Assembly (NCBI GenBank): GCA_001579985.1 | Contig: LRSR01014310.1 | Coordinates: forward strand, 1 to 64,000 | Length of the DNA stretch: 64,000 bases | Origin: Hypsibius dujardini | Lineage: Eukaryota > Tardigrada > Eutardigrada > Parachela > Hypsibiidae | Direction of reading: 5' to 3' | Shown: one piece after another, positions 1,627 to 60,035 of the stretch | Layout of the letters: every line of letters starts with the position of its first letter | Numbering within the stretch: the first letter of the stretch is position 1 | The notes under the pieces: model-generated | Told to the model about the DNA's origin: nothing | The model's database searches: none | The model's input: the letters and a program-made list of their open reading frames with translations, nothing else | Program-made: the position numbers and the translations under genes

Positions 1627-4600
1627 TTATGAAGCGCAGGATGAATTGCCGTCAGGACAGACACATATCTTGATATTTCCCGGGAGAGGCAGACAGATGA
1701 AAGGACATCCTCCGTTGGAGACCGAGCAAGCATTATTCACTACAAGGTAAACGTCACGATAGTGTGAATTGAGAAAAATAGTTTGAATGGTTTTAATTGA
1801 ACGCACATTTGGGGCATTGTTCTGGCACAAAAACAATTCCGAATGAGCCACCACTTCGTCCGGCTGGAAGGGAATGTTGCTTCATTGCCAATCCACTTTT
1901 GGTGATACTATTCACAGTGCCACTGCAATAGAACACAGATTAAAAGACAATTCCAGAATTCGTTAGCAGTTTTGAGTCACATTGGTGAGTAGGACATCCA
2001 GTAAACTCGTCCTTCTGACAATGAGATTCCAATCGAGTGTTTCCCGGTATTCCCTTGTGCAGAGACAATTCGCTTGCCGCCTCCATTCAACGAAATACGT
2101 TCGATATTTCCCGTATCTGCAGAAAATAGTCAGACCGAAAATTCGCAGACATTTTGCTTCGATCAATTTGATTTGTTCACATTGTATTAACTTGATATGT
2201 CGCTTTACTCTGACAAAAAATCTGCAACTGTCAGCCTTTAATTTGACGGCCGGACATTTCATCAATCGGTTGTTGTCTGTTACAAGAACAGATAAAGGCA
2301 TAAACGTATCAAAGAGACGGTAAAGTGCACGACAAAACACCAACGGACATTCAACTATAGATGAGTTCATCTTTCTATAACCAAGTCAGCTTACTGTGGT
2401 CTGCCCAGTAGAGATCGTTTGCTTCGTAATCCAAAGCCAGAGAAGCAGCCCAGACTCCAGTGACCCAGACTTTACGGTAACTTCCATCCATGGAGGCAGT
2501 CTCAATTGTTGTGAGGGAGTGTGACCAGTAAATTGAACTGCAAATGTTTGAAAGTGATTAATATGGCGGCAAATTTTTTTTATTGAAAATCGTTTTTCGG
2601 GCAAGACAGCAAGAAATTTATGGTAAACTCTTCATCGGTTGCTGTTTTTGTGGATTACAGTAACGAGATGATTGAGCGGTGGTTCCAAAACTACAATGAA
2701 TCTCTTAATGGCACTGCTGTTTCTCCATTAGATCAATATTTACTTGATGTGGAAAGTTGAAAAACTGTTAGTTATATGATGTGATTTATGAAGTTGAAAT
2801 TGTTTAACTGCCCCGAATTTTTCTAGGCTTTTTAAGTGTTAATGCTTATCCCCTCGTCCGCCGGAGGGAAGGGGATAATTTTTTGTCACGCTCTCCAACA
2901 AGCTTGTCTCATCTGGCCGATCTCTATTCGCTTTTAGATTTTTTAATGTTTGGACGGTACGAAATATTTCCTGTCACATGAATTGATCGGTTAGAAGATA
3001 ATTTTTGGCCCGGAAGCGTTTTTACGTAAATCATTTTGAATGAGAATCAATCGAAGTAAAAACACAATATTATTTCAGGACATTCTTGGAGTCATTGCAT
3101 GATTGCTTTTTACTTTGGGATGTTGTGTAAATCAGCAAGACTTACAAGTGAAGTCAGTTTATTTAAGTGAGATTCAGATTTCGTCGAGATCCAGATTTTA
3201 ATTGAATAACGGTCGAGGTTGAGTATGTTTGACAACAATCCACAAACGCATACACTTTAGAGGATTCGATCAGCCGTTGTATTCTCCTGATTTCAATGGA
3301 CAGTTTTATGCCCCAGGATGTGAACTCCATCCGCGCATGCACCGTATATTTTAACTGGTGTGTGACTTGGGGGCGAAGCTTGGCTGTCCCTTGCGTCGGG
3401 AGAATATTGTACCTACTGACGCACTAAAAATCGCAATCCTTGACTACAAAACCAACCAATGTATGACAACTGCTAAAACCATGAGCAAGATCTTTTGGTA
3501 AGCGCATAGAAAATTAGTTAAAAGTTTTAGTGCATTTATTATCGTTCAACTGAAAAGTAGTTGCTTGGTTGAAAGTCAATCACTCCATTAACTTACCCGC
3601 GGGAAGGATGCACGGCAAGTGCTGAATCTATGTTGAACCCCGTATGTGAAATGATAGTTTTGTGTCCAGCCTCCAAATGACTTATCTTTGCTACAAGAAT
3701 GGCGTTGTCTTGAACCCAAAACAGATTTCCGGACACAAAGTCCACGGCCAATCCGCGAAATATTCCGGCTGGAAATGAAAATCTATGCCATAATGAGTAT
3801 CAGTTTTCACGAAATGCCATTAATGACGCTATTTGTCATGAGGTAGTTTACCTTTAGTGACGACCAGATGATTATCTGAGCCATCATATCGAGAGCGTCT
3901 AATTCCCGTTTGAGGATTTGTCCAGTAGAGATGATGGTTTAAACAATCCACTGCAACGGCGCAATGGTTTTCTCCAGAATTGTCTGTAAGCTGTTTTGTA
4001 TCGCCACGATCTTCCACGGGCAAACTCCAAAGGGAGGGACCCTGCCCGAAAACGAGAAATCCACTTGTTTTGTGTGGTTCTGTTGTAGTCCGTCGCTCTG
4101 AAAACACGCGGCCAAAATGGACTCTGCAGGCGAGGAACAATCTTTCTGCCGCATGCCTTCTTTCGGATAGAACCCTGGTTGTACTCACCTCCAAGCTCAC
4201 TTCGAACAGAGCATTTAGGAATAATATGAGATAATAAATATGACCTCCAGTGGCAAACGCCGTCTTTAAAGATGCATAACTGACAGTCATCACTCAGTCT
4301 CAAATCCGCACCCCGTCCGCCTGCAACAAAGCTGTGAAGAGCTTTCCTCTCGCCATTCATCAGATGAAGTTGAAGATTTCCATCCTCGTGCATTTCCAGT
4401 TTGTCCATGCTTGCATGTTTTTGGTAGCCGAGATTGTGAGCACGTCCAAGGCCATGTCTTACACTCCACATTTCCCGATTGTCGCAAGAACGCTGGAGGA
4501 TGAGATCGCCATCTTGTTGCAGCGTGATAATACATGTTCCGTTGGAAGAAGTCAAAGATTGATTTCGCAATAGCATTCTACTGTTTTGAAGTATAACTGT

Positions 4601-7264
4601 GGGATGAGAACATCGGGGTACCGATTATTACAGATACGTGAAAGAACAGGGTTTCTACAGTATCAGGCGAATTAAATATTACATGTTACACTACCTTGCG
4701 CTATACATATTATTACTAATATACTATCAAAGAAGATAAGTTTTAACAGAAATGTTAGTTGAGCCATGGCACATACGTGGAAAAGAATTTCTCATGAATG
4801 CGAGTTTGGTTTGTTAAATTTTATAAAAAGGAAGAGATACGTATATTACTGCGGTTTCTAAATGCATTTATCCTTAGTACAGTATCAGGCAACGAGTTTG
4901 TTAAAAGAAATCATATTTTGGCTCAATAGTTAGCTCAACCCCGACTGAATTAATTGTCAATCAAGTCCCAAAATGTTTATTGTTTATTTTCCGGTAAACG
5001 GGTTTTATTAAGACTCGGTAATTTGCCTTTCGCTTTTCTTCCCCCAAAACGTTATTCGGTAAATTTAGCTTTGTGACCTCACCTTTGGCTCCTTGGAAAT
5101 TCGGTGTTGGAACAAAAGTACACAAATTTACTCCTCCCGATGTCCACAGACATTCGTTGTTTTTGAAAAGGCAAAAGTATCCCCCGTCAAGAACCTTCAA
5201 GCCAGCTCCCGAAAATTGGGGCTTTCTGGTATCAGTGCTCCAGACAAGAAAGAGAGTTTGTGGCAGGTACATGGCCAGGTTCCCGTCGGCTTGCATTGTG
5301 ACAGATGTCGGAGTAAACGTTTGATCTTCGTAGCTCATGTTGGTGGACCAAATGGCACGACCGTCACATTGCCGGTAAAGAACCATATTGCCGTTTGATT
5401 CCATTGAGAGTTTCACGTTTTTGTCTGGTGACCAAAGTGCGTCACCGACTTTGAGACTATTTCCCGACTCAAGTTGTGATCGATGGCATTTATACATCAG
5501 ATTTATCTTTCGTTTGTCAGTGCTGCTTAAACCCAATTGCAATCCAAATGTTTTGTCTTTGTACTTTGGGCGAAGTTTGATGGTGGGTCCAACAGTATCC
5601 CCACTCACGGGATGTCTCCTTGCAAATATATTGCTGCGGTAGTGTAGGATCGACTCGAAATCGTATGGCAATCCAAACGCGGTGATGGTATTGTTGTCCC
5701 ATGAGTGAAAGTTTTCTTCTTCGCCTAATCGAGCCAACAGGTATTAAAATTAATTCAAAATCGTTACAATTATAGTTCCGTTGGGGATTCCTCAATATAG
5801 AAATAAATAGTGCTGCCCCTCCCCCACCTGAAATGGGGGCAGGGTTTAATTTTTTTTGAATTTTCAGTTAAAAAGAGGGAGGGTTGCCCCTCAGAATGCT
5901 CCCCCCACCGCACGTCCAAGTGCCCTCCCCCGAAAGCAACAAATTTTATTAACATTCACCGTGTCCGTATTTTCCCATCAAATCGGCATTGATCTTCACT
6001 GTTTCATTGCTTGAAATTTACCTCGTTGGATATTGGCTGAAACAATCTCAACGTATTCATCGCGGTCGGCTCTGATGTGTTCATGAAAAAAACCGAACGA
6101 AGCAAAACCATGTAATATGTAAGCCTAGCGAGACCGGTGTGGATTTCCTACTGCGTGCACCTTAATTACCTAAGGCATGCATCAACTCATGCTGAATTGT
6201 ACCTTTTGTCCAACAACCTGTAAATGGCAGAATATTAGACGAAGTGCGTTCACGTCATTCGTAAATCTCGCGCTATTTCACGACGTGAAGTTGGGGAAAA
6301 ACCCCGCAATCACCTTTCTCGACAAGTCACGCCCTTTTTTGTGAGCGAAGAACGCCATCTCCGATCTTCACTCACGACATCCAATATCGCCCATGTTTTA
6401 ATCGATGCGCAAGTGAATGAAATAGAGCGTGAATTAAGGACTACCAGAAGTTGGATTCAAGTTGGAATGATTCAAATCGCCCGAGCTTTATTCAGCAAAT
6501 ACTCAGTTTCAAAAGGTTTCTTCCGGTAATGAAATATATCAAAATTGTCATACGGCTCCTTTTCTCACCAGATTCCAGGTTGAGTAGCTGACCGCCTCTA
6601 TTCTGGCGTCCGACATATGAGGAACAGCTAATGTAAGGGATGCTTTCAGTCAGCTTTTTGTTTTTTCTTAGTTTAATTTCCTTTTGTCCAGACACTGAAA
6701 ATTCACATACCCTCGTCCGAACAATTGTGCGATGTGGATAAAGTCTTGCGTATTCCGTTGAACGAATTTAATGCAGGTCCCGTTTTCCATCTCGTTCATT
6801 GCTTGTCGAACTGCGAGGCGTTGTTTGGCAGCTAATCATTCAATCAAGCAATAAGAAAATGCGTATTTATTTATTTTTCTAAAATTAATCAAATTGATTT
6901 GTAATATAACTCACATAACTCCGTCGAAAACTGATACGGCACAACTCCATCAGGCCACCGATAAGCTTCATCCATGACTCCGTTTTTTTCACGTTTGACC
7001 TACAAGACGAACCATCATGTATTCAATTTGTTACTCTGCTACTAACTACAATTAGTAGTAATATTAATAACCCGCCATATATACATTGATTTCAGATATA
7101 TTTTGAGGAACCCTTCCTAAAATATCTCCCTCGAACAACAATCCGTTCGGAGGAGCCAAAAAAGCGTCGGATTCGTCGTTGCTATTAGCCGCAGTGGAAG
7201 AAGCATCCTTCAAACACGAGGTTATAATAAGCAAGCTCAAGGAGATTCCGCGAGCTAAAGACAT
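1627..7264 (-). CDS. A1: secreted astacin / bulb-lectin / YWTD-propeller / EGF protein
   Basis: Fourteen exons (- strand, 5' to 3'): 7264-7085, 6999-6915, 6831-6711, 6627-6569, 6217-6170, 6093-6022, 5724-5083, 4596-4189, 4097-3852, 3768-3597, 2537-2395, 2116-1981, 1922-1807, 1739-1627. They sum to 2541 bases (846 residues). Order of parts: signal peptide (MSLARGISLSLL), astacin prodomain with FEGDI, catalytic domain with HELMHALGFFH and SILHY, two bulb-type lectin domains (exons 7 and 8), LDL-receptor-type YWTD blades (exons 9-13) and a terminal EGF (CAVSNGGC type, here CSVSNGGC). An upstream in-frame Met (7348) is possible, but 7264 puts the hydrophobic core at the N terminus. Oddity: exon 6 is preceded by CG instead of AG (6094-6095), while paralogue A2 has AG there. 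A1 may therefore be mis-spliced or dying despite open frames. Family knowledge: astacins are secreted zinc endopeptidases; the substrate is unknown. Confidence 0.8.
5810..5950. repeat. GC-rich palindromic relic in A1 intron 6
   Basis: Runs of C and G (ctcccccacctgaaatggg, then gctccccccaccg) flank an AT-rich centre. The same block sits at the homologous place in A2 (about 26,618-26,760), so it was present before the A1/A2 duplication. It is probably an old inverted-repeat element; its ends are not clear. Confidence 0.4.
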
Positions 7265-9243: not shown

Positions 9244-10087
9244 TCAACCAATCAAGCGACGATGTTCTCTCTGCTTCTCTGCTCTTGTAATGTTTTGCTG
9301 TGTTTAGCGTGAGGGGAAGTCCTCTTTATGTGTCTACTATTCTATTATAAATTATGGAACGGCATCACTTTCTCAGAAAGCTAAAAATTAATTCTGAAAG
9401 AAAATTAGTTAGATTTTTCATTTACTGTTTCAGTCGAAATTGACCCACTAATTAATTTTTCAATTAAATCAAATCTGTAATAAATGTCTGTGACCAAACA
9501 AAAATAAAACATTTAGCAGTTTTTATTTAGTTTTTAACTAAGGTCAAAAGTGACCGACTAACTTTTTAGTTGTTTGCTTTATTTCCCAGTTAAATGTTTA
9601 GTAACTGACACGTTTGACTCAGTTTTGTTACAGCAATAAAAGAACTGGAAAAATATTTAGTTTGTAGTTTTCCTCGAAATGGGTAGACCGATTTCATTTT
9701 TTTTTATATTTCTCAATTTAATTTTTATTAACTAGCCAGAAAGTTCAATTTCTTGTTTTACGAACCGAAAAACTAAAAATTATTTAGTTTGTAGATTTCT
9801 TCAGTTTTCAATTTTGGTCGAAATTGATTGACTAATTTTCGTAGTTCGTCCTACTTGTCAAATAAATCTTTAATAACTAACCCGTTTAGTTCAATTATTT
9901 TATTATCCAATGAAAAATTGAAAAACGAATCAGTGAATTGATTCTTTCAGAAATATAATCAAATGTATGCCTAAGAATTTCAGTTCGATTCCGATTAAAT
10001 TTAGGACCGACAAAATGACCAAACAAAGATAAAGAAATCTGCGACGGAAATTTCTCCAGCAAATGGGGAAGAAATTACGAAAGAGGT
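9244..10087. other. Spacer, no gene seen
   Basis: AT-rich sequence homologous to 733-1626 and to the spacers after other subunit f exons. No ORF with recognisable content. Confidence 0.45.
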
Positions 10088-13000
10088 TATGAAGTGCAGG
10101 ACGAATTGCCGTCAGGACAGACACACTTCTTGTTATTTCCCGGGAGAGGCAGACAGATGAAAGGACATCCTCCGTTGGAAACCGCACACGCATTACTCAC
10201 TAAATGGAAAAGATCACGATAATGTGAATTAAGGTAAATATTTTGAATGGTTTTTATTGAACGTACATCTTGGGCACTGTTCTGGCACAAAAACAATCCC
10301 GGATAAGAATCCACTCCGTCCGGCTGGAAGAGAATGTTGCTTCGTTGTCGATCCATTTTTGGTGATACTATTGACGGTGCCACTGCAACAGAACGCGGAT
10401 TAAGGAAAGACAATTCCAGGATTCTACTAGCAATATTATAATGTAGTTACGTTAGATGGGAGGACGTCCAGTAAACGCGTCCTTCCGACAATGAGATACC
10501 ACAAGAGTATTTCCCCGTATTTCCTTGAGCGGAGACAATTCGTTTGACTCCTCCATTCAACGAAATGCATTCGATATTTCCAGTGTCTGCAGAAAATGAT
10601 CAGACCATTATTTAGCAGACATTTTGTTTCGGTTCATTCGATTAGTTCACATTGTGGCGGATTATATTTCGCTTTACTCTGATAGAGAGTGTGCAACTGT
10701 CACCGCCAACTATGACGGCCGGACATTACATCAGTCCTTTGATGTCTGTTGCATTGACAGATACGGACATAAACGAGGTCAAGAGAAGCGGTTAAGTGCA
10801 CAACAATGACCAACGGACATTCAGCTGCAGATTAGTTCATGCTTCTATAACCAATTCAGCTTACTGTGGTCTGCCCAGTAAAAGTCGTTTGCTTCGTAAT
10901 CCAAAGTCAGAGAATGGGCGTGAACTCCAGTGACCAAGACTTGACGATTACTTCCATCCATGGAGGCAGTCTCGATTGTTGAATGAGAGTGTGACCAGCA
11001 GATTGAACTGCAAATGTATAAAAGTGATTGGGATGGCGGCAAAAAATTCTTTATTCTAAATTGTTTTTCGGGCAAGACAACCATGAATTCATGATAAACT
11101 CTTTATCGGTTCATGTTTCTGTGGATTACAATAATGAGATGATCGAGCGGTGGTTCCAAAACTATAATGACTCTTGACGTCACTGCTGTTTTTTCATTAT
11201 CTCTGTATTCACTTGATGGGGAAAGTCGAAACACTATCAGTTTTACATTATGATTCATGAAGTTGAAATCATTTAACAGTCCCAAAATGTTTTCGGCTTT
11301 TTACATGTTAAAGCATGCCCCCCAGCACGCTTTCCATCTCCGGCCGGCCTCAATTTACTTTTAGGGTTTTCCTGTTTTGGACGATACCAAAAAAATTTCC
11401 TGTCACATGACAGGGTTGGTTGGAAGATAATTTTGGCACGGCAATCTTTTAACGTGTTACATTTTTGAATGGGAATCAATCAAAGAGCTAACACAATATT
11501 ATTTTTATTACATTCTTGGGGTAATTGCATGATTCCTTTTTACTTTCGGAAGTTGTGCACATCAGCAAGATTACCACGACGGGCATGCTGAAATGATTGA
11601 AAGTCTATTTTTCTAATTTGCAGTTTCAGATTTCTGATTATCCATTTACTGAAATCTTGACATATATCTACTGCCCTATTCAAAAATAAATTGGGTTAAA
11701 ATTTCGGAAGGACCACAGGAAGAAAACGCCAAACACCGGGAGGTGGTGTCTGATTATATGAATTTTTTTCTTCTTCTCCTTATTATTAAAAATCTCCCAC
11801 GAGACTGAAGCTTTTTCATATTTGTAAACGCCAGAAACAAAAAGGGATTAGACCTTTAATTTACATAAAAAATATTTTTCGATAAATTTGATTTGTGTTT
11901 CTTAAATCGACAGAAAAGAAAACGTCGTGAGATCTGTTATCGCGCTCTATGCAGCAGAGCTTGAATTTTTGTTTACGTTTTTGAAAGTGAGATTCGGACT
12001 GGCCTCTCTCCTCTGGTCAGTTATCGACTGATCTGGTCTAGACTTTTGTTCATACTCCTAATTGAATATCCTTTCACACCACATCGTCAGTTTTAGAATG
12101 TAAAGAATTACCTATTTTTAAAAAATGGACTTTCAATCATTTCAGCATGCCCCTCGTACAAGTGAAGCTCAACTTATCGTGATGAGATTCAGATTTCATG
12201 GAGATCCACATTTTAAGTGAATACCGTTCGAGGTTGAATATGCCTGACACTATACTACCAAAAGACGCATAAACTTTAGAGGACTCGATTAGCCGTTGTA
12301 TTCTCCCGACTTCAAGGGACAGTTGTATGCCTTAGCCCGGTGCGAATTTGACTTTTGCAATTGCGGACTGGTGGCCAGCACAACCGCGTCAAAACGGCTG
12401 CACATATAATTTGGGACTGCTTAATGCCCGCAATGTTTGCTGTGCCGAAATATTCCTCACAAATACCAGTTAAATCACTGCCACTTATTAAACTCATGCT
12501 TTTGCGGGGCCGTGAAAAGCATGGCAAATTTGCTGACCACTTCAGTCGTGTCCGCAAAGCTCCCACATTAATTACTGGGTCCGCAATAAGCCAGCCATTT
12601 ACTAATCGCACATAAACCAGCCATTATCGCACAACTAAAAAAGTGGTCGTTTAGTTGAAAGTCATTGGCTTTATTGCCTTACCCGCGGGAAGGATGCACA
12701 ACAAGCGCTGAATGATAACCAATTCCCGTATGTGAAATGATGGTTTTATGTCCAGCCTCCAAGTGACTCATCTTTGCTACAAAAATGGCGCTCCCTTGAC
12801 CCCAAAAAATATTTCCGGACACAAAGTCAACCGCCAATCCCAGATATATTCCAGCTAGAAATGAAAATCGATACCACAATCAGTATCGCTCTCCAGGAAA
12901 TGCCCCAAAATGACGTTATATGGCATGACATATTTTACCTTTGGTGATGACCAGATGATTGTCTGAGCCATCGTACCGGAAATGTTTGAAAGTTCTCTCG

Positions 13001-13504
13001 TCTCGCCGACATCTTCCGCAGGCAATCTCCAGAGCGACGGCCCATTCGCGAACACCAGAAATCCTCCATGGTTTCTTGTAACATTCGCATCCCTTTCACC
13101 TAACGTTACAACTTTAAAAACATCCATAAACGCTTTCTCGTCCGAAATATTGGTAAACTTCCTTTTTGCTCAAGACTCCAGTAAGGTCAATCAAACAGTG
13201 GCTCGTGTGACACTCCCGTCAGATCCAATTGAGTGTCCGACAATGTGACCATCTTTCCTTTCCAGGACTCTCTGATCGGGAGATTGTGTCTGGCATGTCT
13301 GTCAGTCTTTGTTGCGTCAAAATTCTGTGACTACTCAGCAAGTTAAAACCAACGATAACGTCAAGATCGTGGACCATTTTGACTGAGTTTGTACATACCG
13401 AGCGTTTCCGGTTTGGTTACAGTTGGTGAGGCACTATGACCTCTTCCCGCAAGTAATAGGAAACAAGACAATTGCAAAACAAAACAGGACACGAGATGAT
13501 CCAT
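10088..13504 (-). pseudogene. B1: type B gene with internal deletions
   Basis: The signal-peptide exon (13,504-13,399, MDHLVSCFVLQLSCFLLLAG) is intact. So are the shared tail exons at 12,854-12,683, 11,007-10,865, 10,586-10,451 and 10,382-10,267, and the EGF exon ending near 10,088. The two large head exons found in B2-B4 are absent. The signal-peptide exon is followed within about 100 bases by a decayed piece of the coiled-coil exon, with stops near 13,200. The propeller part of that exon has lost about 100 bases, joining the TYR-rich blade end to the NISG segment out of frame (near 12,980). B1 is therefore a deleted copy of the type B gene. An intron (11.0-12.7 kb) also carries a MITE. Confidence 0.75.
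11577..12156. mobile_element. MITE with GGGCATGCTGAAATG inverted ends
   Basis: GGGCATGCTGAAATGATTGA at 11,581 is matched in reverse complement near 12,128-12,152, giving ends of about 25-30 bases around a 580-base element in a B1 intron. Other type B and A copies lack it at this place. No coding capacity was found. The target duplication is not clear, so the superfamily is not called. Confidence 0.6.
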
Positions 13505-32832: not shown

Positions 32833-33304
32833 CTAGAAATGAGAATCGAAACTTTAATCAACATCGCTCTCTAGAAATAGCCGCCAAATGACGCTAATTT
32901 TCTACGTCGTCCATTCTCGGCACTTTTTGAGGCCCAAATATTCCTTGAATACAGCACAGTGCTTTCATTCACCGCAGCAGTTAATCAAATTATTATCGTG
33001 GCACTAAAATTATTATTACTCGTTTCTTCTTGAACGGGGATAGTGAACCGCAGCTTAGGTCTCAGCAATATTTTCATCGGCCTTGGCAAGTTGATTTTCA
33101 AATGTACAAAATGGGCACAATTTTGGGTGGCAGACTTCGAGCAATCAGGGTGGTCTGAGTTTGAGCAACACTTGGCCAGAACTTGCCACTGCTTTCTTCT
33201 TAATCTCTGATTTAATGCTCAGCCCAAGCGGAAAAATTAGATTGAGAAAGGGGCGAGGCCGGGGGAGGAGTTCCGGGGTATGGGCAAAAGGGGCGGGACG
33301 TTAC

Positions 33305-37800: not shown

Positions 37801-40726
37801 AAATAATTTGGGGGAAAAATCCCAAAATCTGCCAGACGTTTTGGTTTTGGTAATTTGCGAGTTTTAGAAATTCCGATAATGCAGCTTTGTACTGGCATTC
37901 GTCTCGGCGACTGATTACATAGTTACAGGAACAAAGTGACATAAAATATTTATCGTTACTCGCTTCTTTGTGAACGCGGCTAGTGAACCACAGTTTATGT
38001 CTCAACAATATTTTAATGGATCTAGATAATTTAAGGTTAAAAAATAAATTATGTTTTCTTATCTTTGGTTTTTTATACCTGAAATTTCAGTTTTGTGCAA
38101 AACAACATTTGTTTTTGTCCTAGAAAACCTAGTTTGGCTTAAATAAATTTTATTTGAATAAATTTTGTAAAAACGCTTACCAGGACATTACTTGGGATCG
38201 ACGGATGAAAATGATAATGATAAGGTAATTTATTCAAATGACAAATGATAAAGAATTAATGAAGAAATCGTTTTCTGAAATTCATTTGTTCATTTTGTTT
38301 ATTGTATACAAAATAAAATTCAAGATGATCAGGGATTCAAATCCCAGTCCATCCCCCTCTGTCTCAACTCTCGAGAAATTGTTTGTCAAACCTTGAATGG
38401 TGACTGAAAAGTTCGCCAACTGTCCATCGATTTTCAAACTGGCAGCTGATAGAACCAAAGCTTCAGATTCAGATAGATTTGTCTTAATCTCGCGCAACGT
38501 CTCCGAGATCCTTGAAATTTCACTCCGTGCAAAGGCATCTAAAAGACTGATCTGTTTGCCATATTGCACCTGTCCAGGCATCTCCCCTTCGTATGCAGAC
38601 GTTTTTGGTACGTTGATCGGTGTCTTCAGTTCCGACGTGGTTCGTGCCAATTTCATCTGGATATTCGCAATGACAGTTGTTGAAGTGGTGGCTCCTCGAA
38701 AGGCCGCCAGACTGATTTTTGTCATTTGAAACGGTTTGATGACGAATTTCTCCCCGTCCCACATGCTGAATTGACGGGCGTCCATCAACAAAGATCTCAA
38801 CCGAGATTGTTCTTCGTTGACAGACTTTAGGCCGGCTTGGGAAGTGTTCTTGTCTGGGCATACAATTCCCCAATTACCATTTGCTTTAAGGCTGCTCCAG
38901 ATGGTTCTCAAATCTTCAAAGAGGATGGCAGATTCGGAAGAAGCCGCTACCCGTGTAGTTAAAACAATTGCGCTGGATCTTTCTGAATCGGCGACCTGCG
39001 AACTGGTGCTGATCATCACTCGTTTTAGGGCATCCCGCAGATGTCGGTCATTTTTGTCGTAGATCTCGTTCATGATCTACACACATATGGGTAAGAACAT
39101 GTTGAATTTAGAGACATGACCGACAATGGGTCTCGCAAGAAGGGGGGGGGGTGTTTTCATAAAATAAGCACGCGTTTTGGAATGGCTCAACGCCTAATTT
39201 AATTTTGAGCGCTGTTGTTAACATAGTGCTGGAAGCTTCCTAAAGATATCTTGAGAATTCGAGTTGGACGAAAGTCTGTGGCGTAACTGACCTTTCGGGG
39301 GGGGGAGATTAAACCTGTTTTAATTAAAATCTTTGGGAGGTCTTTGGGATTGGGAAAGTGGAGGCAACAGGCATCTGTTATTTTGGTTAATTATCTTGCT
39401 AAATCTATTAAATTATTCACTTAATTCAACTAAGAGCTACTTTGTTCTGTTATTCTTTTTTTTCTTCTTTATTTTCTACTTTATTATTTATTTCTATTAT
39501 TCATTTTAGTTTTATCAAATCGGCCACTGGATAAGATTCCATTCCATAGAACATTATCCTTGAATTATGACAAAATGTTCAGCAGGAATTTTTCTTCCTA
39601 CTTTTGTTGTGATATCCGGTCGTGCATTTTTCGCCGTCCAAAAGACAGCGTCCCACATGTCATGAGTCAAATCGCTCGATCCGACCTTCTCCACCTCCAT
39701 TAGCTCTTCCAGATGGCTTACAACTTCATCAGAACTGATGAAAAAGTTTTCGTTTTGAATCTCCGTGGTGATGACGTTGTTTGACACAACCAGCTCCATC
39801 TTCTTCAGGTCAGCCACAGGCAGATAAATTTTTTCCTCGTTGGGAAACTTTCGCAGCATTTTGCCAAATAATTCGGAGCGTTGCATGTGCTGAAACTTGA
39901 TCTCGACGGAACGCTTTTCAGTGCGATGCGTTTGTAGACTGTAGAAGACTTCGAGACTCGATGTAAAAACTTTCGGATGATGGCGAATATTATCCGCAAC
40001 CTCGATGCATGTTTCGTTGGTAGAACAGGTGATTCGAAAGGCGAAAGTGGATGGCTGATTGGCATAGGAAGTCCATTCATTCGCAATATAGTACTTTTCA
40101 GAGCGCACTTTACTCTCGATTCTGATATCCTCAATCGGCAGCATTCGAATACTGTGTTTCGAGACGTTCCGTCCTAGTTCAGATGACACGGCAGTCTGAA
40201 TGGCTTTCCAGTACTCGGGATACCACATTTTCACTTCAAAAACGGTTTCAAATGTTTCCGTAAAGTAGTTGCGGTGGGTTGTCGTTGAATTCGGTTGCAG
40301 AATCAGTGCCGGAGAGCAGTAGAATCGTTCGGAGGAGCTGTCGCCTGAGCCTTCTTTTTTGTAGATAGAGACATGGAAATTGTCGTATTCCAACGAGATG
40401 AAAGCATTGGGAGACACCTCAATTGCTCCCCATCCTACAAGCAAAATACAGTGTTACTTTATTTGCCCTCAAAGGGAGCAAATTAAATATTTTAAACATA
40501 CCTTATAATAAAAAAAATTTATACAAAAAAATAAAGTATTTAAAATTCTGTGACTATTCAGCAAGTTAAAATAAATGTTTGCGTCAAGTCGTGAGCCATT
40601 TTGACTGAGCTTGCTCATACCCAGCGTTTCCGATTTGGTAACAGTTGGTGGAGCACCATGACCTCCTCCCGCAAGAAATAGGAAATACGTGAATTTCAAG
40701 ACAAAACAGGACACGAGTTGATCCAT
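34881..40726 (-). CDS. B2: secreted coiled-coil / YWTD-propeller / EGF protein, long stalk
   Basis: Nine exons: 40726-40621, 40434-39602, 39076-38392, 37673-36627, 36542-36371, 35767-35625, 35376-35241, 35179-35064, 34993-34881. The total is 3351 bases, 1116 residues, frame consistent. Signal peptide MDQLVSCFVLKFTYFLFLAG. Exon 2 (residues 36-313) is an unrecognised domain with YYIANEWTSYANQPST and DMWDAVFWTAKNARPDITTK. Exon 3 (313-541) begins IMNEIYDKNDRHLRDALKR and has MWDGEKFVIKPFQM. Exon 4 is a long coiled coil of 43-residue repeats (LSDSLAGLTRNL, SRSETSWKGKMAT) that ends in the first propeller blade (HHLYW). The tail exons match type A. Blade motif YWAD reads YLAD here. The exon 2 donor is AAAA/GTAGG. 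No transmembrane segment other than the signal peptide. Function unknown; the parts suggest an oligomeric stalked extracellular protein. Confidence 0.82.
37000..37290 (-). repeat. 129-base coding tandem repeats in the B2 stalk
   Basis: The string gccatctttcctttccag recurs exactly 129 bases apart (37,022 and 37,151), and the following text is nearly identical. The unit encodes 43 residues of heptad-like coiled coil. B4 has a single copy (near 56,872) and B3 has none, so the number changed after duplication. Confidence 0.75.
39110..39330. repeat. G-run relic in type B intron
   Basis: G homopolymers and the motif gtctgtggcgtaactgacc lie between exons 3 and 2 of B2. The motif recurs at the same place in B3 (48,105) and, decayed, in B4 (58,515). 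It is probably an old short element sharing the GGCGTAACGG end with the copy at 42.1 kb. Confidence 0.35.
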
Positions 40727-44018: not shown

Positions 44019-47000
44019 TTATGAAGTGCAGGATGAATTGCCGTCAGGGCACACACATTTCTTGTTATTTCCCGGGAGAGGCAGACAGATGAAAGAACAT
44101 CCTCCGTTGGAAACAGCGCATGCATTGCTCACTAAAAGAAAAAGAAAAAGAAAAAACACAATGATGTAAATTGGGGAAAATACTTTGAATGGTTTAATTG
44201 AACGCACATATTGGGCACTGTTCTGGCACAAAAGCAATTCCAACCAAGGACCCACTCCCTTCGGTTGGAAGGGAATGTTGCTTCATTGCCGATCCACTTT
44301 TGGTGATACTATTCACGGTGTAGCTGCAACAGAACGCGGATTAAGGAAAGAAAATGTCAAGATTCGTTAGCAATATTGAGTTACGTTTCTCGGACGGACG
44401 TCCATGAATGGGTCAGTCGTAAATTTCTTCTGATTTTATTTATTTTACTGCAACAAAACGCGGATTAAGTAAAGACAATTCCAGGATTTTCGCTAACAAT
44501 ATTGAGTTACGTTAGTTGGTAGGACGTCCAGTAAACTCGTCCTCCTGACAATGAGATGCGCAAAGAGCGCTTCCCCGCACTTCCTTGAGCGGAGACAATT
44601 CGTTTGCCTCCTCCATTCAACGAAATGCACTCGATATTTCCAGTTTCTGCAGAAAATGATCAAACCAATAATTATCAGACATTTTGCTTCGGTAAATTTG
44701 ATTAGTTTACAATACAGCGGATTATATTTCGTTTTCCTCTGACAAAGAGTATGCAAATGTCACCGTCAACTATTACGGCCGGACATTACATCAGTCCATT
44801 GTTGTCTGTTGCATTGACAGATGCCGATATAAACGTTTCAAAAATGACGGTAAAGGCACGACAAATATCAACAGACGTTCAGTTGTAGATTATATTTCTA
44901 AAACCAAGTCAGATTACCATAGACTGCCCAGTAAAGGTCGTTTGCTTCGAAATCCAAAGCCAGAGAATTGGTATGGACTTCAGTGATCAAGACTTGACGA
45001 TTACTTCCATCCATGGAGGCAGTCTCAATTGTTGATGAAGAGTGTGACCAGTAGATTGAACTGCAAATGTATAAAAGTGATTGAAATGGCGGCCAAAAGT
45101 TCTTTATTGTAAATGGTTTTTCGGGCAAGACAGCAAGAAATTCATAGTAAACTCTTCATCGGTTCCTGTTACTGTGCATTACAATAACGAGATGTTTTAG
45201 CGGCGGTCCCAGAACTACAATGAATCTCTTGATGGTACTGTTATTTTTTCAATATTTCTGCATTCATTTGATGCGCAAAAATGAAAAACTGTTAGTTTTA
45301 AATTGAGATTTTTGAAGTTGAAATCATTTTACTGCCACAAAAATTTGTTTGTGCTTTTTTCATTTGAAAACCTGCCCCTCGCCCGCCGGGGAGGTGGAGG
45401 AAACAGTTTTTGCTACGATTTCTCATCCGGCCGATCTCAATCCGCTTTAGGTTTTTTCTTTTATTTGCACGGTACCAAAAAACATTTCGGTTATATGAAT
45501 GGATTGGTTGGAAGGTAATTTTTTTGCGGCAGTTTATTTACGTGTAGCAGTTTGGAAGGAAATAATTTGAAGAGCAAACAGAATATAATTTTTGTTACAT
45601 TCCTGAGGTCACTGCAAGATTGCTGCAAGTGAACTTCAACTTAATGATAAGAAAGTCAGATTTTTTCCATATCCAGATTTTAATCGAATACTGCTCGAGT
45701 TTAAATATGTTTGACAACTATCAAAAGACGCACAAATTTTAGAAGGCTAGATTAGCCGTTCTATTCTAACTACTTCAAGAGATAATTTTGTGCCCTAAGG
45801 CGTGAACAGCACCTTCGCCAAAACCGTATATTTGGACCGGCGTGTGACCGGGGGGGGGCGGGGCTTAGCTGTCCCTTAAGTCGAGAGAAAACTATACTGA
45901 TACACTAAACATCGCAATCCTAGACTACAAAAGCTATCGGTGCATGAACATGTTATTTTGGTAAACGCTCAAAAAATTAATTGAAAGTTTTAATGCATTT
46001 ATTATTGCAAAATTTAAAAATTGGTTGTTTTTGAAGGTTAATCGCTCTATTGACTTACCCGCGGGAAGGATGCACGGCAAGCGCTGAATGGTAGTTGATT
46101 TCTGCATGAGAAATAATAGTTTGGTGTCCAGCCTCCAGATGACTCATCTTTGCTACAAGAATGGCTCTGCCTTCAATCCAAAACAAGTTTCCAGATACAA
46201 AGTCTACGGCCAATCCGTAACGTAAGTCAGCTAGAAATAAAAATTAAGGCTACAATCAGCATTGCTGTCAAGAAATCGCTACCAAATGACGCTATTTGCT
46301 TTGGCGTATTTTACCTTTTGTAACGACCAGACGATTGTCTGAGCCATCATACCCAGAACGTCTAATTCCCGTTTGCTCAATTGTCCAGTAGAGATGATGG
46401 TTAACACAATCCACTGCAATTGCTACATTGTGCTCCCCGGAAACGTTTGAAAGTTCTTTCGTCTCCCCGATGTCTTCGCCAGACATTTTCCAGAGCGACG
46501 GTCCCTGCGCGAACACCAGAAATCCTCCACGGTTTCTCCCAGCATTAGAATCCCTTTCGTCTGCCGTTTCCACTTTAAAAACATCCATCAATGCTTTATC
46601 GTCCGAAATATTGGCAAACTTCCTTCTTGCTGAAAACTCCAGTAAGGTCAACCGCGATTCGGCTTGAGAAAAATTTCTTGCCAGGTCGGCAAATTGTTGT
46701 CGTGCCGTATCAGATCGCAAAAGATTACCAGATATTTCCGATAGCTGGTCTGAAATATATAAGAAATGCAAATAATTCGGGTAAAGGATCGCAATGGGAT
46801 TGGACACCCTGATACGTTTGAATATTTTTCACGTACTATTTACTGGGCTAATTAAGTAAATTTAAAAACATCCTAATCCGCTATTGACGCTTTTCGAGGC
46901 TCAACCAATCCTTGAATACATCGCAGTGCTTGCATTCGCTGCAGCAGCTGATCAAGTTATTATCGTTGCAGCAAAATTATCGCTACTCATTTCTTCGTGA

Positions 47001-49446
47001 ATTCAACTAGTAAACCGCATAAATATATAATTATAAAATACGTAAATGATAACCTATTCAAATGATGGAGAAGTGCTGAAGAAATTGTTTTTTTTAATTT
47101 ACTTTATTATTCCTATATAAAATAACATTTAGGATGACTGGGGTGTCAAATCCCAGTTCCTTTGTTCTGTCTCTGTCTGAAAAAACATTGTTTGTCATAC
47201 CTTGAATGTTGACTGAAAAGTTCGTCAACTGGGCATCGTTTTTCGAATCAGCAGCTGATAAAACCGCAAAATTCTGCTGAACCAAAGCTTCAGATCCAGT
47301 TAGTTTTGCTTTAATTTCGCTCAACGTCTCCGAGATTCTCAAAATTTCATTCCGTGCAAAAGTTTCAATAAGACTGATCTGTTTGGCAGATTCCGCCTGT
47401 CCAGGTATCTCTCCTTCGGTTGCAGACTTATCCGGCACGTTGATTCGAGTCCTCAGTTCCGACGTGGTTCGACCCACTTTCATCTGGATATTTGCAATGA
47501 CAGTTGTCGAAGTAGTTGCTCCTCGAAAGGCTGCCAGACTGATTTTTGTCAGTTGAAACGGTTTGACAACGAATTTCTCCCCGTCCCACGTGCTGACTTG
47601 ACGGGCGTCCATCAACAAAGATCTCAACTGAGATTGTTCTTCGTTGACAGACATTGGGCCGGCGTGGGAGTTGTTCCTGTCTGGGCATACAAATACCCAA
47701 GAGCCACTTGCTTTGAGGCTGCTCCAAATGGTTCGCAAATCTTCAAAGAGGATGGCAGATTCAGAAGGAGAAAGTGCCCCCCGGGCATTTGAACCACTTG
47801 CGCTGGATCTTTCCGAATCAGCAATCTCCGAATTGCTGTTGTTCATTGCTCGTTTTAGAGCGTCCCGCAGATGTCCGTCATTTTGAGCATAAATGTCATT
47901 CATGATCTACCCATGGATAAGAACATGCTAAATTTAGAGACATGACTGACATGGGCCTCGAAAGTAGGGGGTAAGGGATGATTTCGTAAAGCAAACACGC
48001 GTTTTAGAAATTGCTAACGCCAAATTTATTTCCAACGCTGTTTTTAACATAATGCTAGAAGCCTCGAGCTCACAGAGGTATCTTCAAACTCGAGCTGGAC
48101 AAAAGTCTGTGGCGTAACGGACCTTTTGCAAAAGGGAAAAATTCAATCCTTGTTTTGAAATTAAATTACAAGGTCCTTGTAATTGGAGAAGACGGGGCAA
48201 CATTATTATTATTATTTGTTTTAGTTTTGTCAAATCGACCACTTCATAAATTTCCATCAAGGCTTGTATCATATTATCCTCGAATTATAACAAAATGTTT
48301 ACAGAGTTTTTTCTTCCTACCTTTGTTGTGATATCCGGCCGAGCATTTTTTGCCCTCCAAAAGACAGCGTTCCACATGTCACGAGTCAAATCGCTCGATC
48401 CGACTTCCTCCACCTCCATCAGCTCCTCCAGCTGGCGAGCAACTTTTACAGTTTCATCAGAAATGACAAAAAAGTTCTCGTCTGTTATCTCAGTGGCGAT
48501 GACGTTGCTTGACACATCCAGCTCAATGTTTTTCAGGTCAGCCACAGGCAAATAGATTGTATCCTCGTTGGGAAATTTTCGCAACATTTTGCTAAATAAT
48601 TTGGAGTGTTGCATGTGCTGAAGCTTGATCTCGACAGAACGTTTTTCAATACGATGCGTTTGTAGACTGTAGAAGACTTCGAGACTCGAGGTAAAAACTT
48701 TCGGATGGTGGCGAATAATATCTGCGACCTCGATGCATGTTTCGTTGGTAGAGCAGGTAATTCGAAAGGCGAAGGTAGACGGCTGATTGGCATAGGAGAT
48801 CCATTTATTAGCAATATAGTACTTTTCAGAGCGTACTTCGCTGTCGATTCTGATCTCCTCAATCGGCAGCATTCGAATGCTGTATTTCGAGACGTTCCGT
48901 CCTAGCTCAGATGACACAGCCGTTTGAATGGCTTGCCGATACTCGGGAGACCACATTTTCACTTGAAAAAAAGTTTCAAATGTTTCCGTTAAGTTGTTGT
49001 AGTGAGTTGTCGTTAAGTTCGGTTGCAGAATGAGTGCCGGAGAGTAGTAAAATCGTTGGAAGGAGCTGTGTTCTGTGCCTTCCTTTTTATAGATAGAGAT
49101 CTGGAAATTGCCATACTCCAACAAGATGAAGGCATTGGGAGACACTTCAATTGCTCCCCATCCTACAAGTGGAATACAGTGTTACTTAATTTGCCTTAAA
49201 AGGGAGCAAAGTAAATATATTTAATATATTTTTTGTAACAAAAAAAATTGCTGAAATACTTAAAATTCTGTGACTACTCAATAAGTTAAAATAAACGTTC
49301 GCGTCAAGTCGTGAGCTATTTTGACGGAGTTTGTACATACCCAGCGTTTCCGTTTTGGTTACAGTTGGTGAATCACTATAACCTCTTCCGGCAAGAAATA
49401 GGAAACACATCAATTGCAAGACAAAACAGGACACGAAATAATCCAT
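44019..49446 (-). CDS. B3: secreted coiled-coil / YWTD-propeller / EGF protein, short stalk
   Basis: Nine exons: 49446-49341, 49162-48321, 47906-47201, 46749-46315, 46230-46059, 45060-44918, 44646-44511, 44323-44208, 44131-44019. The total is 2769 bases, 922 residues. Signal peptide MDYFVSCFVLQLMCFLFLAG, then SPTVTKTETLG. The head domain in exon 2 (residues 36-316) has YYIANKWISYANQPSTFAF and DMWNAVFWRAKNARPDITTK. Exon 3 (316-551) has HLRDALKRAMNNSNSEIADS and MWDGEKF-like TWDGEKFVVKPFQL. The coiled-coil exon is only 435 bases (DQLSEISGNLLRSDTARQQF), the shortest of the family, and ends in HHLYWTIEQTGIRRSGYDGS. Tail exons have the canonical lengths; the EGF is CAVSNGGCSFICLPLPGNNK. All junctions are GT-AG, with no stop inside. 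Secreted; function unknown. Confidence 0.83.
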
Positions 49447-54238: not shown

Positions 54239-57200
54239 TTATGAAGTGCAGGATGAATTGCCGTCAGGGCACACACATTTCTTGTTATTTCCCGGGAGAG
54301 GCAGACAGATGAAAGGACATCCTCCGTTGGAAACAGCGCATGCATTGCTCACTAGAAGGAAAATGGTCACGAGAATGTGAATTAAGGAAAATAAATTGAA
54401 AGATTCTAATTGAACGCACATTTGGGGCACTGTTCTGGCACAAAAACAATTCCGAGTAAGGCTCCACTCCGTCCGGCTGGAAGGGAATGTAGCTTCATTG
54501 CCGATCCACTTTTGGTGATACTATTCACGCCACTGCAACAGAACGCGGATTAAAGAAAGACAATTCCGTAATTCGCTAGCAATATTGAGTTACCTTGACC
54601 AGTTCGACGTCCAGTAAACGCGTCCTCCCGACAATGAGATGCCATGAGAGTTTTTCCCCGCACTTCCTTGAGCGGAGACAATTCGTTTGCCTCCTCCATT
54701 CAACGAAATGCATTCGATATTTCCCGTATCTGCAGAAAATAATCGGAACAATAATTAGCAGGCACTTTGCTTCGGTACATTTAATTAGTTGACATTGCAG
54801 CGGATTATATGTCGCTTTTATTCTGACAGAGAGTCTGAAAGTGTCACAGTCAACTTTGACGGCCGGACATTTCATCAGTCGGTTGTTGTCAATTACATTG
54901 ACGGATCCGAACATAAACGTGTCCAAAGACACGGTTAAATGCAGGAAAAACACCAACGGACATTCAGCTGTAGATGAGTTCATGTTTCTATAACCACGTC
55001 AGCTTACTGTCATCTGCCCAGTAAAGGTCATTTGCTTCGTAATCCAAAGCCAGAGACATGGCGTAGACTCCAGTGACCCAGACTTGACGATTACTTCCAT
55101 CCATGGAGGCAGTCTCGATTGTTGAGTAGGAGTGTGACCAGTAGATTGAACTGCAAATGTATAAACATGATTGGGATGGCGGCAATAAATTCTTTATTAT
55201 AAACTCTTATTCTGACAGGACAGCAATAAATTCAGGGCAAACTCTTCATCAGTTCCTGTTTCTGTGGATTACAATAACGAGATGATCGAGCGGTGGTTCC
55301 AAAACTACAATGAATCTCTTGACGGCACTTCTGTTTTTTCATTATCTCTGTATTCACTTGATGGGGAAAGGCTTCCTGTTAGTTTTATATTGTGATTTAT
55401 GAAGTTGAAATCATGTAACTAAAACAAAATTTGTTAGCCTTTTAAAAGCTTGTTAAAGCTTGCCCCCCTCGCCCGGCGGGGGGGGGGGAAGTGAACATTT
55501 TTTTGCGACCCCCTCCAGCAGGCTTGCCTTCTCCCCGGCCGATCTCAATCCGCTTTTAGGTCTTTCCTTTGTTTTGGACGGTACCGAAAAAAAGTTCTGT
55601 CACATGACTTGAGTGGTTGGAAGATAATTTTTGACGCGGCAACTTTTCCATGTGTAGCATTTTGAATGGGAATCAGTCGAAGAGCAAACACGATATTATT
55701 TGTTACATTCTTGGGGCCACTGCATGATTGCTTTTTACTTTCGGACGTTGTGTTGTGCACATCAGCAAGATTACTAGAAGTGAACTTCAACTTATTAAGG
55801 TGAGATTGAGATTTACTCCAGATCCAGATTTTAAGTGAATACTGGTCGAAGTTGAATATGTCTGACAACTATCAAAAGACGTAGAAATTTTAGAGGACTC
55901 GATTGGCCGTTGTATTCTTTCGACTTCAAGGGACAGTTTTATGGCCTAGGATGTGAATATCGCCCTCGCATGCACCGTATATTTAGACCGGTGTGTGACT
56001 CGAGGGGGAAGGCGGGGCTTAGCTGTCCCTTGCGTCGGGAGAATACTGCACCTATTGACGCAATATAAATCGCAATCCTTGACTGCAAAAGCAATCAGTG
56101 CATGACAACTGCCAATACCATGAGCAAGATATTTTGGTCAACGCTCAGAAAATTAATTAAAAGTTTTACTGCATTTATTATCGCATAACTCAAAAATTGG
56201 TTGCTTAGTTGAAGGTCAATGGTTTCATTAACTTACCCGCGGGAAGGATGCACGGCAAGCGCTGAATTTGAGTTGATTCCCGTATGTGAAATAATATTTT
56301 TGTGTCCAGCCTCCAGGTGACTCATCTTTGCTACAAGAATGGCGCTGCCTTCAACCCAAAACTTGTTTCTGGACACAAAGTCCACGGCCAACCCGTGATA
56401 TATTTCGGCTAGAAATGAAAATCGATGCTTTACTCAGCATCGCTCTCCAGAAAATGCCAAGAAATGACGCTATTTGTCATGACGTATTTTACCTTTAGTG
56501 ATGACGAGATGATTATCTGAGCCATCGTACCGAGAACGTCTAATTCCCGTTTGCCCATTTGTCCAGTAGAGATGATGATTAACACAATCCACTGCAACTA
56601 CGCGATTGTATTCTCCGGAAATGTTTGAAAGTTGTCTCACCTCGCCGACATCTTCCCCAGGCAATTTCCAGAGCGACGGTCCCTGCGCAAACACCAAAAA
56701 TCCTCCACGGTTTCTCCTTTCGTCTGGCGTTTCCACTTTAAAAATATCTATCAACGCTTTCTCGTCCGGAATATTGGTAAATTTCCTTCTTGCTGAAGAC
56801 TCCAGTAAGGTCAATCGATCAGTGGCTCGTGTGACACTTCCCGTCAGACCCAATAGAGTGTCCGACAATGTGGCCATCTTTCCTTTCCAGGAAGTCTCTG
56901 ATCGGGAGATTGTGTCTGACATGTCTGTCAATCTTTGTCGCGTCAAAGAATCCGATTGAGTGAGGTTTCGTGTGAGACCGGCCAAACTGTCTGACAAGGT
57001 CGCCAGGTTTTTGTTCCCCTTTGATTCGGACCGGGAAATATTTTCTGCAAGATCAAAACAATTTTGCCGCATCAGATCGCGAAAGATTACCGGATATTTA
57101 CGAGAGCTGGTCTGAAATATTTAAGAATTGCAAACAACTCGGGTAAAGGATCGCAATGGGATTGGATACCCTGATACGTTTGAATTATTTTCACTGTGTG

Positions 57201-60035
57201 CTGGATTAAATAATTAAATTTGGAATAATAATTATCGTCCGCTCTCGACGCTTTTCGGGGCTGAGACATTCCGATAATACGACGCAAAGCTTGCATTCGC
57301 CACAGCAGTTGATCAAATGATTATTGGTGCAACAGAATTATCATTACTCATTTCTTCGTGAACGAGGCTAGTGAACCGCAGCTGAGGCTTTAGCAATATT
57401 TTTCGACCTTGACAAATTGATTTTCGAACATAATTTCATTTTGGTAGCCATCAATTATTTAAAGTTGACGAAATTTCAAAGCTATGTAAACAACGGAAAT
57501 TTCTCTGCGTTACAAAACTCTTTTTTGGTTTGAATAAACTTTGCTTGAATCTATTTTGATAAAAAACTTAACCAGGAAATTACTTGGGATCGGTCGATAT
57601 TTAAATGATAAATGTTAAAATACATAAATGATAAGCTATTTAAATGATGAAGAAATGCTGAAGAAATTGTTTTCTGAAATTCACCTATTCAGTTCATTAT
57701 TTGTATATAAAATAACATTCAAGATGATTGGGGTGTCAAATCCCAGTTCGTCCTCTTTTGTTTCAGTTCACAAAAAATTGGTTGTTAAACCTTGAATAGT
57801 GACTGAAAAGTTCGCCAACTGTCCATCGTTTTTCGAATCGGCAGCTGATAAAACTGCAAATTTTTGCTGAACCAAGGCTTCAAATCTGGTTAGGTTTGCC
57901 TTAATCTCGCGCAACGTGTCCGAGATCCTCGAAGCAAATTCCGGCTGTCTAGGCATCTGCCCTTCGGTTGCAGATTTATCCGGTACGTTGATTCGAGTCC
58001 TCAGTTCCGACGTGGTTCGTGCCACTTTAATCTGGATATTCGCAATGGCCGTCGTCGAGGTGGTGGCTCCTCGAGAAGCCGCCAGATTAATTTTTCTCAG
58101 TTGAAATGGTTTGATGATGAATTTCTCCCCGTCCCACATGCTAACTTGACGGGCGTCCATCAACAGAGACTTCAATCGAGTTTGTTCTTCGTTGACAGAC
58201 ATTGGGGCGGCTTGGGAGTTGTTCCTGTCTGGGCACACAAGTCCCCAAGAGCCACTTGATTTAAGGCTGCTCCAGATGGTTCGCAAATCTTCAAAGAGGA
58301 CGTCAAATTCGGAAGGCGTCGCTAGTTGTGTAGTTGAAACAATTGCGCCGGGTCTTTCTAAACTGGCGACCTCAGAACTGCTGCTGATGATTGCTCGCTT
58401 TAGAGCGTCCCGCAGATGTCGATCATTTTTGTTGTAGATGTCATTCATGATCTACAAATGGGTAAACGCATGCTTGATTTAGAGACATGACGGATATGGG
58501 TCTCGGGGGGGGGGAGTCCGAGGCATAATTGACCGTTCGCTGGCCGGGGGGAGGTCAATCCCAAATTCGAATTATAATTAGAGATCCTTGGGAGGGCGAT
58601 GCAACCGTGAATTTACCCATTTTGCTAGTGATAAAATGCCTCTTCCACATTTTGGGAAAAAATAAAAACGAATTTAGAACGTTTAACATTTTCATTTAAC
58701 TATTTAACTCAGCAATATTTTACACTTTTTTCTATTTTAGTAGTTCTTTTTAGCTACATTTCCGACCTATATTTATTATTTTCATTCAGTATTTTAGTTC
58801 CATTAAAACGGTTCGGGATGAGATTCCGACAAAAATTGTATTACATTATCCTTTCAATTATAGCACCTCTTACCTTACCTCTTACCTTTGTTGTGATATC
58901 CGGTCGAGCGTTTTTTGCCCTCCAAAAGACAGCGTTCCACATGTCACGAGTCAAATCGCTCGATCCGACCTTCTCCACCTCCATCAACTCTTCCAGATGG
59001 CGAGCAACATTGACAATTTCATCAGAACTGACAAAAACGTTCCCGTCTTTTATCTCAGTGGCGATGATGTTGCTTGACACATCCAGCTCAATCTTCTTCA
59101 GATCAGCCACAGGCAAGTAAATCATATCCTCGTTGGGAAACTTTCGCAGTATTTTGCCAAATAATTCGGAGCGTTGCAAATGCTGAAACTTGATCTCGAC
59201 AGAACGTATTTCAGTACGATGCGTTTGTAGACTGTAGAAGACTTCGAGATTCGAGGTAAACACTTCCGGATGATGGCGAATATTATCCGCGACTTCACTG
59301 CATGTTTCGTTGGTAGAACAAGTGATTCGAAAGCTGAAGGTGGACGGCTGATTGGCATAAGAGATCCATTTATTAGCAATATAGTACTTTTCAGAGCGTA
59401 CTTCGCTGTCGATTCTGATCTCCTCAATCGGCAGCATTCGAATGCTGTATTTCGAGACATTCCGTCCTAGCTCAGATGACACGGCCGTTTGAATGGCTTG
59501 CCGATACTCGGGAGACCACATTTTGACTTGAAAAAAAGTTTCAAATGTTTCCGTTAAGTTGTTGTAGTGGGTTGTCGTTAAGTTCGGTTGTAGAATGAGT
59601 GCCGGAGAGTAGTAAAATCGTTGGAAGGAGCTGTGTTCTGTGCCTTCCTTTTTATAGATAGAGATCTGGAAATTGTCGTATTCCAACGAGATGAAGGCAT
59701 TCGGAGACACCTCAATTGCTCCCCATCCTACAAGCAGAATGCAGCGCTACTTTATCTATATTATTCGTTTAAAAAGGAAACCAACTTAATATGTAAAAAT
59801 ATACTTCTTATAATGACAAAAAAATGTATAAGAAAAATAAAAAAAAACTTAAATATTTGTGACTACTCAGTAAGTTAAAGTAAACGTTTGCGTCAAGTTG
59901 TGGGCCATTTTGACTGAGTTTGTAGATACTCAGCGTTTCCGATTTGGTTACAGTTGGTGAGGCATTTTCAACCCTTCTCACAAGAAATAGAAAATACGTG
60001 AATTTCAATACAAAACAGGACACGAGATGACTCAT
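54239..60035 (-). CDS. B4: secreted coiled-coil / YWTD-propeller / EGF protein
   Basis: Nine exons: 60035-59930, 59727-58886, 58451-57791, 57044-56493, 56408-56237, 55150-55008, 54729-54594, 54532-54420, 54351-54239. The total is 2838 bases, 945 residues. Signal peptide MSHLVSCFVLKFTYFLFLV. The head (residues 36-316) and second region (316-536) match B2 and B3. Exon 4 starts at a different acceptor (57,045, CTTGCAG) from B3: the ancestral acceptor upstream is kept, but the sequence after it has stops, so the gene appears to have moved its splice site while keeping phase. The stalk has one 43-residue unit (NLTQSDSLTRQRLTDMSDTI). Propeller motifs HHLYWTNGQTG, SIYWSH and LYWADD are kept. The 113-base exon 8 is a 3-base in-frame deletion of the usual 116. 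A possible upstream Met (60,047) is less likely by homology. Confidence 0.83.

Follow-up and report, generated by a model that had tools for sequence, protein, structure and literature searches.

Organization of the array

The first 64,000 nucleotides of contig LRSR01014310.1 of the tardigrade Hypsibius dujardini (assembly GCA_001579985.1; this whole stretch is called the window) carry a tandem array of predicted secreted proteins in which two kinds of N-terminal head, A and B, are joined to the same C-terminal propeller and EGF domain. All gene models represent splicing predicted from the genomic DNA of one assembly. Self-comparison of the window revealed seven copies of the tail, all on the minus strand, namely T1 (gene A1), T2, T3 (gene A2), T4, T5 (gene B1), T6 (gene B2) and T7 (gene B3); the exact outer limits, from the stop exon of A1 to the ATG of B3, are 1627–60035. 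An earlier note on this DNA had proposed that both gene types end in five exons with identical phases, and this holds for all seven tails. The exons measure 172, 143, 136, 116 and 113 bases, except that an in-frame codon loss has reduced the fourth to 113 bases in T4 and T7, and the entry phases are invariably 1, 2, 1, 2 and 1. All tail exons have AG and GT borders, the sole exception being the exon-3 donor of T4, which is GA. In-frame stops after exon 2, present in most copies, were considered as possible damage and rejected as such, being located 3' of a conserved GTAAGC donor and therefore intronic. Four genes (A2, B1, B2 and B3) are complete and unbroken from ATG to stop, and their introns are GT-AG save for a weak donor at exon 1 of the type-B genes. 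An Rfam scan gave no match.

Type A genes

Gene A2 consists of 14 exons and 847 codons without a break, and specifies a signal peptide, an FEGD propeptide, an astacin domain, two B-lectins, six propeller blades and the EGF domain, in that order. Its complete head and blade 1, defined by the gene model and by Pfam, occupy 24960..29264 on the minus strand, with the second lectin encoded by the exon at 25297–25704 and blade 1 by that at 24960–25205 (both phase 1-1), and are followed by tail T3 (22463..24878, minus strand; exons of 172, 143, 136, 116 and 113 bases). Pfam identified Astacin (E=3e-57, 193.7 bits) and, in two stretches, B_lectin (38.2 bits against a cut-off of 32.4), which bears out the earlier description of type A as an astacin with lectins. 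The HExxHxxGxxHE zinc-site motif, here HELMHALGFFHEH, agrees with assignment to family M12A, while the Met-turn reads YDFESILHY, its Met replaced by Leu. A 335-nucleotide inverted repeat (27531–28681, 97% complementary) lies in an A2 intron about 24 nucleotides past the exon-3 donor, and is not found in A1.

The head and blade 1 of A1 span nine exons at 3852..7264 (minus strand): 7085–7264 (signal peptide and propeptide), 6915–6999, 6711–6831, 6569–6627, 6170–6217, 6022–6093, 5083–5724 (C-terminal half of the astacin plus lectin 1), 4189–4596 (lectin 2) and 3852–4097 (blade 1). Tail T1, encoding blades 2–6 and the EGF domain, lies at 1627..3768 on the same strand (exons 3597–3768, 2395–2537, 1981–2116, 1807–1922 and 1627–1739). 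The two heads are 84% alike and the two tails 79%. Since the acceptor of A1 exon 6 is CG instead of the AG found in A2, A1 may lack an active protease product.

Type B genes

The three type-B genes, all open models of nine exons on the minus strand, encode proteins of 1138 (B1, 34881..40726), 944 (B2, 44019..49446) and 967 amino acids (B3, 54239..60035). Each begins with a signal peptide and a head of approximately 350 residues, followed by a helical stretch, six blades and the EGF domain. The exons preceding the tail are located at 40555–40726, 39602–40434 (head), 38392–39076 and 36627–37673 (coiled region plus blade 1) in B1; 49275–49446, 48321–49162, 47201–47906 and 46315–46749 in B2; and 59864–60035, 58886–59727, 57791–58451 and 56493–57044 in B3. 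The tail exons are of 172, 143, 136, 116 and 113 bases in B1 and B2, and of 172, 143, 136, 113 and 113 bases in B3. The weak exon 1 donor, GTCACA, is conserved across all type-B copies.

Profile searches revealed no significant Pfam match and no PDB match for the type-B head, in keeping with its earlier description as an unknown domain, and it has no relative among the viral contigs searched. UDP-galactopyranose mutase was considered on the basis of a weak Pfam match and rejected, the match being below the cut-off. The head may resemble uncharacterised proteins of Daphnia-like crustaceans.

The helical stretch differs greatly in length among the copies (36604–37686, 46292–46828 and 56470–57120, minus strand), through internal repeats of about 43 residues and copy-specific acceptors. 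In B1 and B3 its hydrophobic periodicity at 3.6 is stronger than in 500 of 500 shuffled sequences; the short version in B2 does not show this. In B1 the coiled region and blade 1 are held together in the uninterrupted exon at 36627–37673, so that their fusion is independent of splice prediction.

Propeller identity

The tail encodes six blades of the YWTD/GLAVD type closed by an EGF domain (NGGC...CxCP), which agrees with a YWTD propeller followed by EGF. A phmmer search of PDB with the B3 copy identified the propellers of LRP2, LRP4 and LRP6 with E-values down to 1e-137 (1e-27 for single-propeller LRP4), and LRP6 can be aligned with the tail blade by blade. The Pfam Ldl_recept_b profile falls slightly below its cut-off (19.9 versus 21 bits). 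A Pfam scan with the full models found no LDL class A match, and the proteins are accordingly not assigned to the LDLR/LRP receptor family. The predicted A and B models stop after the EGF domain with no terminal membrane segment, as judged from the sequence without a predictor.

A hypervariable face

The five intact copies were aligned for an analysis of variation, with T2 added for the tail exons (six copies there), and loops were assigned to faces by the known YWTD topology rather than by a model of an array protein. The ratio of nonsynonymous to synonymous substitution rates (dN/dS) was 0.66 for the top loops (B-C and D-A), 0.21 for the bottom loops (A-B and C-D), 0.28 for the strands and 0.22 for the EGF domain. 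In LRP6 the top-face loops B-C and D-A form the ligand-binding face. Within the D-A loops of the six blades, dN/dS reached 2.08 at position -3 and 2.71 at position -1 before the inner strand (strand A), as against 0.17 and 0.12 at the neighbouring positions -4 and 0. Up to six different residues occur in six copies at these hot sites. The comb of 12 sites formed by -3 and -1 holds 55 distinct residues where 20.8 would be expected, a value reached by none of 200,000 random sets, and when slid along the protein it yields at most 39. Among the positions with at least four different residues, 19 of 20 fall in the top-face loops, which make up only 66 of 252 positions. A codon test on the 18 codons at -3 to -1 rejected a ratio (omega) of 1 (2dlnL 10.0, p=0.0015).

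With the LRP6 numbering in the alignment anchored by six residues named in PMC10089208, LRP6 D98, R141 and N185 align with position -1 of blades 2, 3 and 4. These three residues are on the top surface of LRP6 and overlap the epitopes for SOST (sclerostin) and DKK (PMC10089208). In blade 3 of the array propellers, position -1 is a constant Ser, and -2 and -3 vary instead.

The heads gave dN/dS values of 0.20 (astacin), 0.25 (lectin 1) and 0.32 (lectin 2) for type A, and 0.24 (exon 2) and 0.41 (exon 3) for type B; by this measure both are under purifying selection. Decaying duplicates whose loops are merely drifting would fit the lost acceptor of A1 and the broken T2 and T4, but the bottom loops, the strands and the heads are all conserved (0.21, 0.28 and 0.20–0.41, respectively), and the hot sites change at more than the synonymous rate with an ordinary proportion of synonymous differences (pS). 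We therefore regard relaxed constraint as very improbable. A mutational hotspot was likewise rejected, pS at the hot sites being the same as elsewhere, and targeted mutagenesis like that of diversity-generating retroelements was dropped, as variation within the hot codons extends to each of the three bases and the host is eukaryotic. The alignments demonstrate a conserved propeller framework combined, in each of the blades, with fast change of the residues around the predicted ligand-facing side, a pattern to be expected if the molecule serves rapidly shifting recognition. This putative binding face, overlooked in the earlier note, is the strongest evidence for the tail as a recognition module.

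Junction between head and tail

That only the head differs between the two types, as had been suggested, proved correct in that the heads are unrelated, but it underestimated the shared part: blade 1 (211 nucleotides; 3852–4062 and equivalents) is also common to both, with 65–77% amino acid identity between A and B. The similarity ends at the first residues of blade 1, and the preceding 60 nucleotides score no better than shuffled sequence. In type A, blade 1 opens an exon of its own after a 91-base intron; type B has no intron at this point, blade 1 sharing its exon with the helical stretch. Because blade 1 is homologous in the two types, the junction must lie upstream of it. The tail introns and 3' flanks can also be aligned among the copies, at 75–86% nucleotide identity, which argues for segmental duplication and confirms the view of one tail family with a common origin. 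We conclude from these alignments that a block of approximately 2.7 kb, from blade 1 to the EGF domain with introns and 3' flank, was duplicated beneath two unrelated heads, and that the heads were swapped by a segmental event whose border lies immediately upstream of blade 1, rather than by shuffling of exons via the intron that follows this blade.

History of the tails

The copies of the tail are all 75–84% alike and form a star-like tree. Separation of the two A tails from the B tails is weakly supported over the 5' half. Over the 3' half, A2 groups with B3 (ultrafast bootstrap, UFBoot, 97), and a clade of A1 and A2 is rejected by the approximately unbiased (AU) test (p=0.0097); the trees thus indicate that tails have been exchanged or converted between types A and B, and the greater likeness of the A heads (84%) than of the A tails (79%) agrees with this. 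In one 250-column window of the alignment, mostly intron, the tails of T2 (9812–12978) and B3 (53968–56703) are 96% identical as against about 80% elsewhere, which probably marks a recent gene conversion in which a broken copy took part.

The earlier note had envisaged that heads were swapped by way of the phase-1 intron that follows blade 1, both products then being duplicated in tandem. The tandem duplication of both products is supported, that intron is of phase 1 in both types, and the tails do have a common origin. Nevertheless, blade 1 is shared, homology ceases at its start, where type B has no intron, and the star-like tree with A2 beside B3 in the 3' half argues against one swap and clean copying. 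On this evidence we consider the single-swap history scarcely tenable.

Broken copies are found at three places, all on the minus strand. The B-type remnant T2 (10087..13499) retains five intact, open tail exons; its blade 1 is internally deleted, head exons 2 and 3 are deleted, and B exon 1 persists at 13332–13499. In the second B-type remnant, T4 (31429..33102), there are two stops, the exon-3 donor is lost and blade 1 is missing, and B intron sequence is recognizable upstream of the tail at 32907–33102. The last is a decayed A-type 5' end at 62001..62313, what survives of a third A unit, comprising parts of exons 1 and 2 with intron 1, and 82.7% identical to both A1 and A2. Its start codon is gone, the acceptor is AA and the frame is lost. 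As this fossil is situated only about 2 kb upstream of the B3 ATG, its position is compatible with replacement of the body of an A gene by a B gene.

Neighbouring sequence

Convergent with each tail are plus-strand copies of a sequence of approximately 103 bp, six in total, at 673, 9184, 20444, 31237, 43588 and 53426. They look like the terminal exon of a gene for subunit f of the mitochondrial ATP synthase (PDB match, E=5e-5), and five of the six are open to the same AKYH/GKYH end before the stop; the remaining parts of such a gene were not found in the window. Pfam also identified pieces of nucleolar protein 6 (Nrap/Utp22), namely domain 6 at 16536–17354 (minus strand) and a fragment of domain 5 at 33212–33583 (minus strand) within the T4 unit, and the 3' end of this gene is repeated at 63755–64000 and 42951–43067. 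A glycine-zipper protein at 19111–19494 (minus strand) gave weak Pfam matches below the cut-off, and a small, Cys-rich, secreted-looking open reading frame at 61298–61750 (minus strand) gave no Pfam match.

Proposed function

We propose, with moderate confidence, that the locus is a tandem array of secreted recognition proteins in which a diversifying propeller is shared by two effector heads. The variable face of the propeller would bind differing or changing ligands, the surfaces of microbes or of something else that is non-self being the most likely targets, with allorecognition or gamete recognition also conceivable, and the constant heads would act as effectors that determine what follows binding. 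In type A, the astacin protease and the two B-type lectins may process or hold the target; in type B, an oligomerising helical stalk with its N-terminal domain could present propellers multivalently. Both types would act as soluble molecules, since the predicted models have no terminal membrane segment.

Several points weigh against this proposal. It is built on genomic sequence and on a comparison of a few paralogues from one assembly, of which five are intact and a sixth contributes the tail exons. The -3 to -1 window that gave p=0.0015 had been narrowed after inspection of the data, and for the entire set of top loops omega, at 0.66–0.92 depending on how the set is defined, does not exceed 1 (likelihood-ratio test, p=0.30). 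Gene conversion can bias codon tests. The AlphaFold model of the type-B head has a predicted local distance difference test (pLDDT) score of 36, and with A1, T2 and T4 damaged the array is partly decaying.

Alternatively, each propeller might have adapted a single time to an endogenous ligand of its own, unchanging and of the matrix or lipoprotein type, which would be neofunctionalisation with no continuing conflict. LRP propellers normally bind endogenous ligands, and the data describe divergence among paralogues, not allelic polymorphism. However, the same two positions vary in nearly every blade and copy, which exceeds what a few shifts in specificity would require, and recombination of tails between the types has continued; we judge this explanation unlikely, though it is the strongest competitor. 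A fast-evolving binding face combined with an astacin also recalls reproductive recognition: proteins of gametes diversify as well, and the literature describes proteases of the astacin type that serve in hatching or in sperm penetration in several animals. Within the window, however, nothing points to reproductive expression, and a reproductive role seems quite improbable.

Returning to non-self recognition by soluble proteins, we tentatively suggest a more specific possibility. This would be a combinatorial secreted system in which tandem genes homogenise and reshuffle the diversifying propeller, broken copies perhaps acting as donors, and display it on either of two exchangeable heads, the lectin-protease or the stalked domain. 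Such a system would have a parallel in immune pathways of soluble proteins, which likewise have a protease arm and a recognition arm. If the proposal is correct, the array represents a new variable-receptor scaffold in animals, in which the framework is kept and the docking face is altered in every blade. Head exchange would then permit one to ask whether recognition and effector functions trade as units.

Comparison with known systems

LRP-type propellers are conserved docking platforms for Wnt antagonists, laminin and apolipoproteins. The array tails resemble those of the LRP/LDLR family (LRP6 E1, LRP4, LRP2) in having six YWTD-type blades followed by EGF. They differ in that the array proteins read as soluble, with one C-terminal propeller and no LDLR class A repeats, and in the hypervariability of the binding face from one paralogue to another; furthermore, the Pro present at -2 in most LRP6 blades is absent from the array blades. 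Type A agrees with the multidomain astacin (M12A) proteases in its Pfam Astacin match, HELMHALGFFHEH, FEGD propeptide and YDFESILHY, but it continues beyond the astacin with two B-lectins and then a YWTD propeller. A literature search of partial coverage found no published example of this combination, nor of a hypervariable YWTD propeller face.

Tachylectin-2 of the coral Oculina is an invertebrate propeller lectin under positive selection with a star-like tree, in which the selected sites are not spatially clustered (PMC2880987). The array shares the invertebrate propeller, the positive selection and the star-like tree; unlike tachylectin-2, its variable sites cluster on one face and recur in every blade. 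In the incompatibility receptors HET-D and HET-E of Podospora (HNWD), a near-invariant propeller framework undergoes concerted evolution while a few codon positions per repeat are under diversifying selection (PMC12222747). The array shows a closely similar pattern, since diversification on the putative interaction face of its propellers is confined to a small number of codon positions that recur from repeat to repeat. This is a functional parallel and not homology: HNWD proteins are intracellular fungal nucleotide-binding oligomerization domain-like receptors (NLRs) with WD40 repeats varying within one gene, whereas the array proteins have the YWTD fold, are predicted to be secreted, and vary from one tandem gene to the next, these genes having heads of two kinds.

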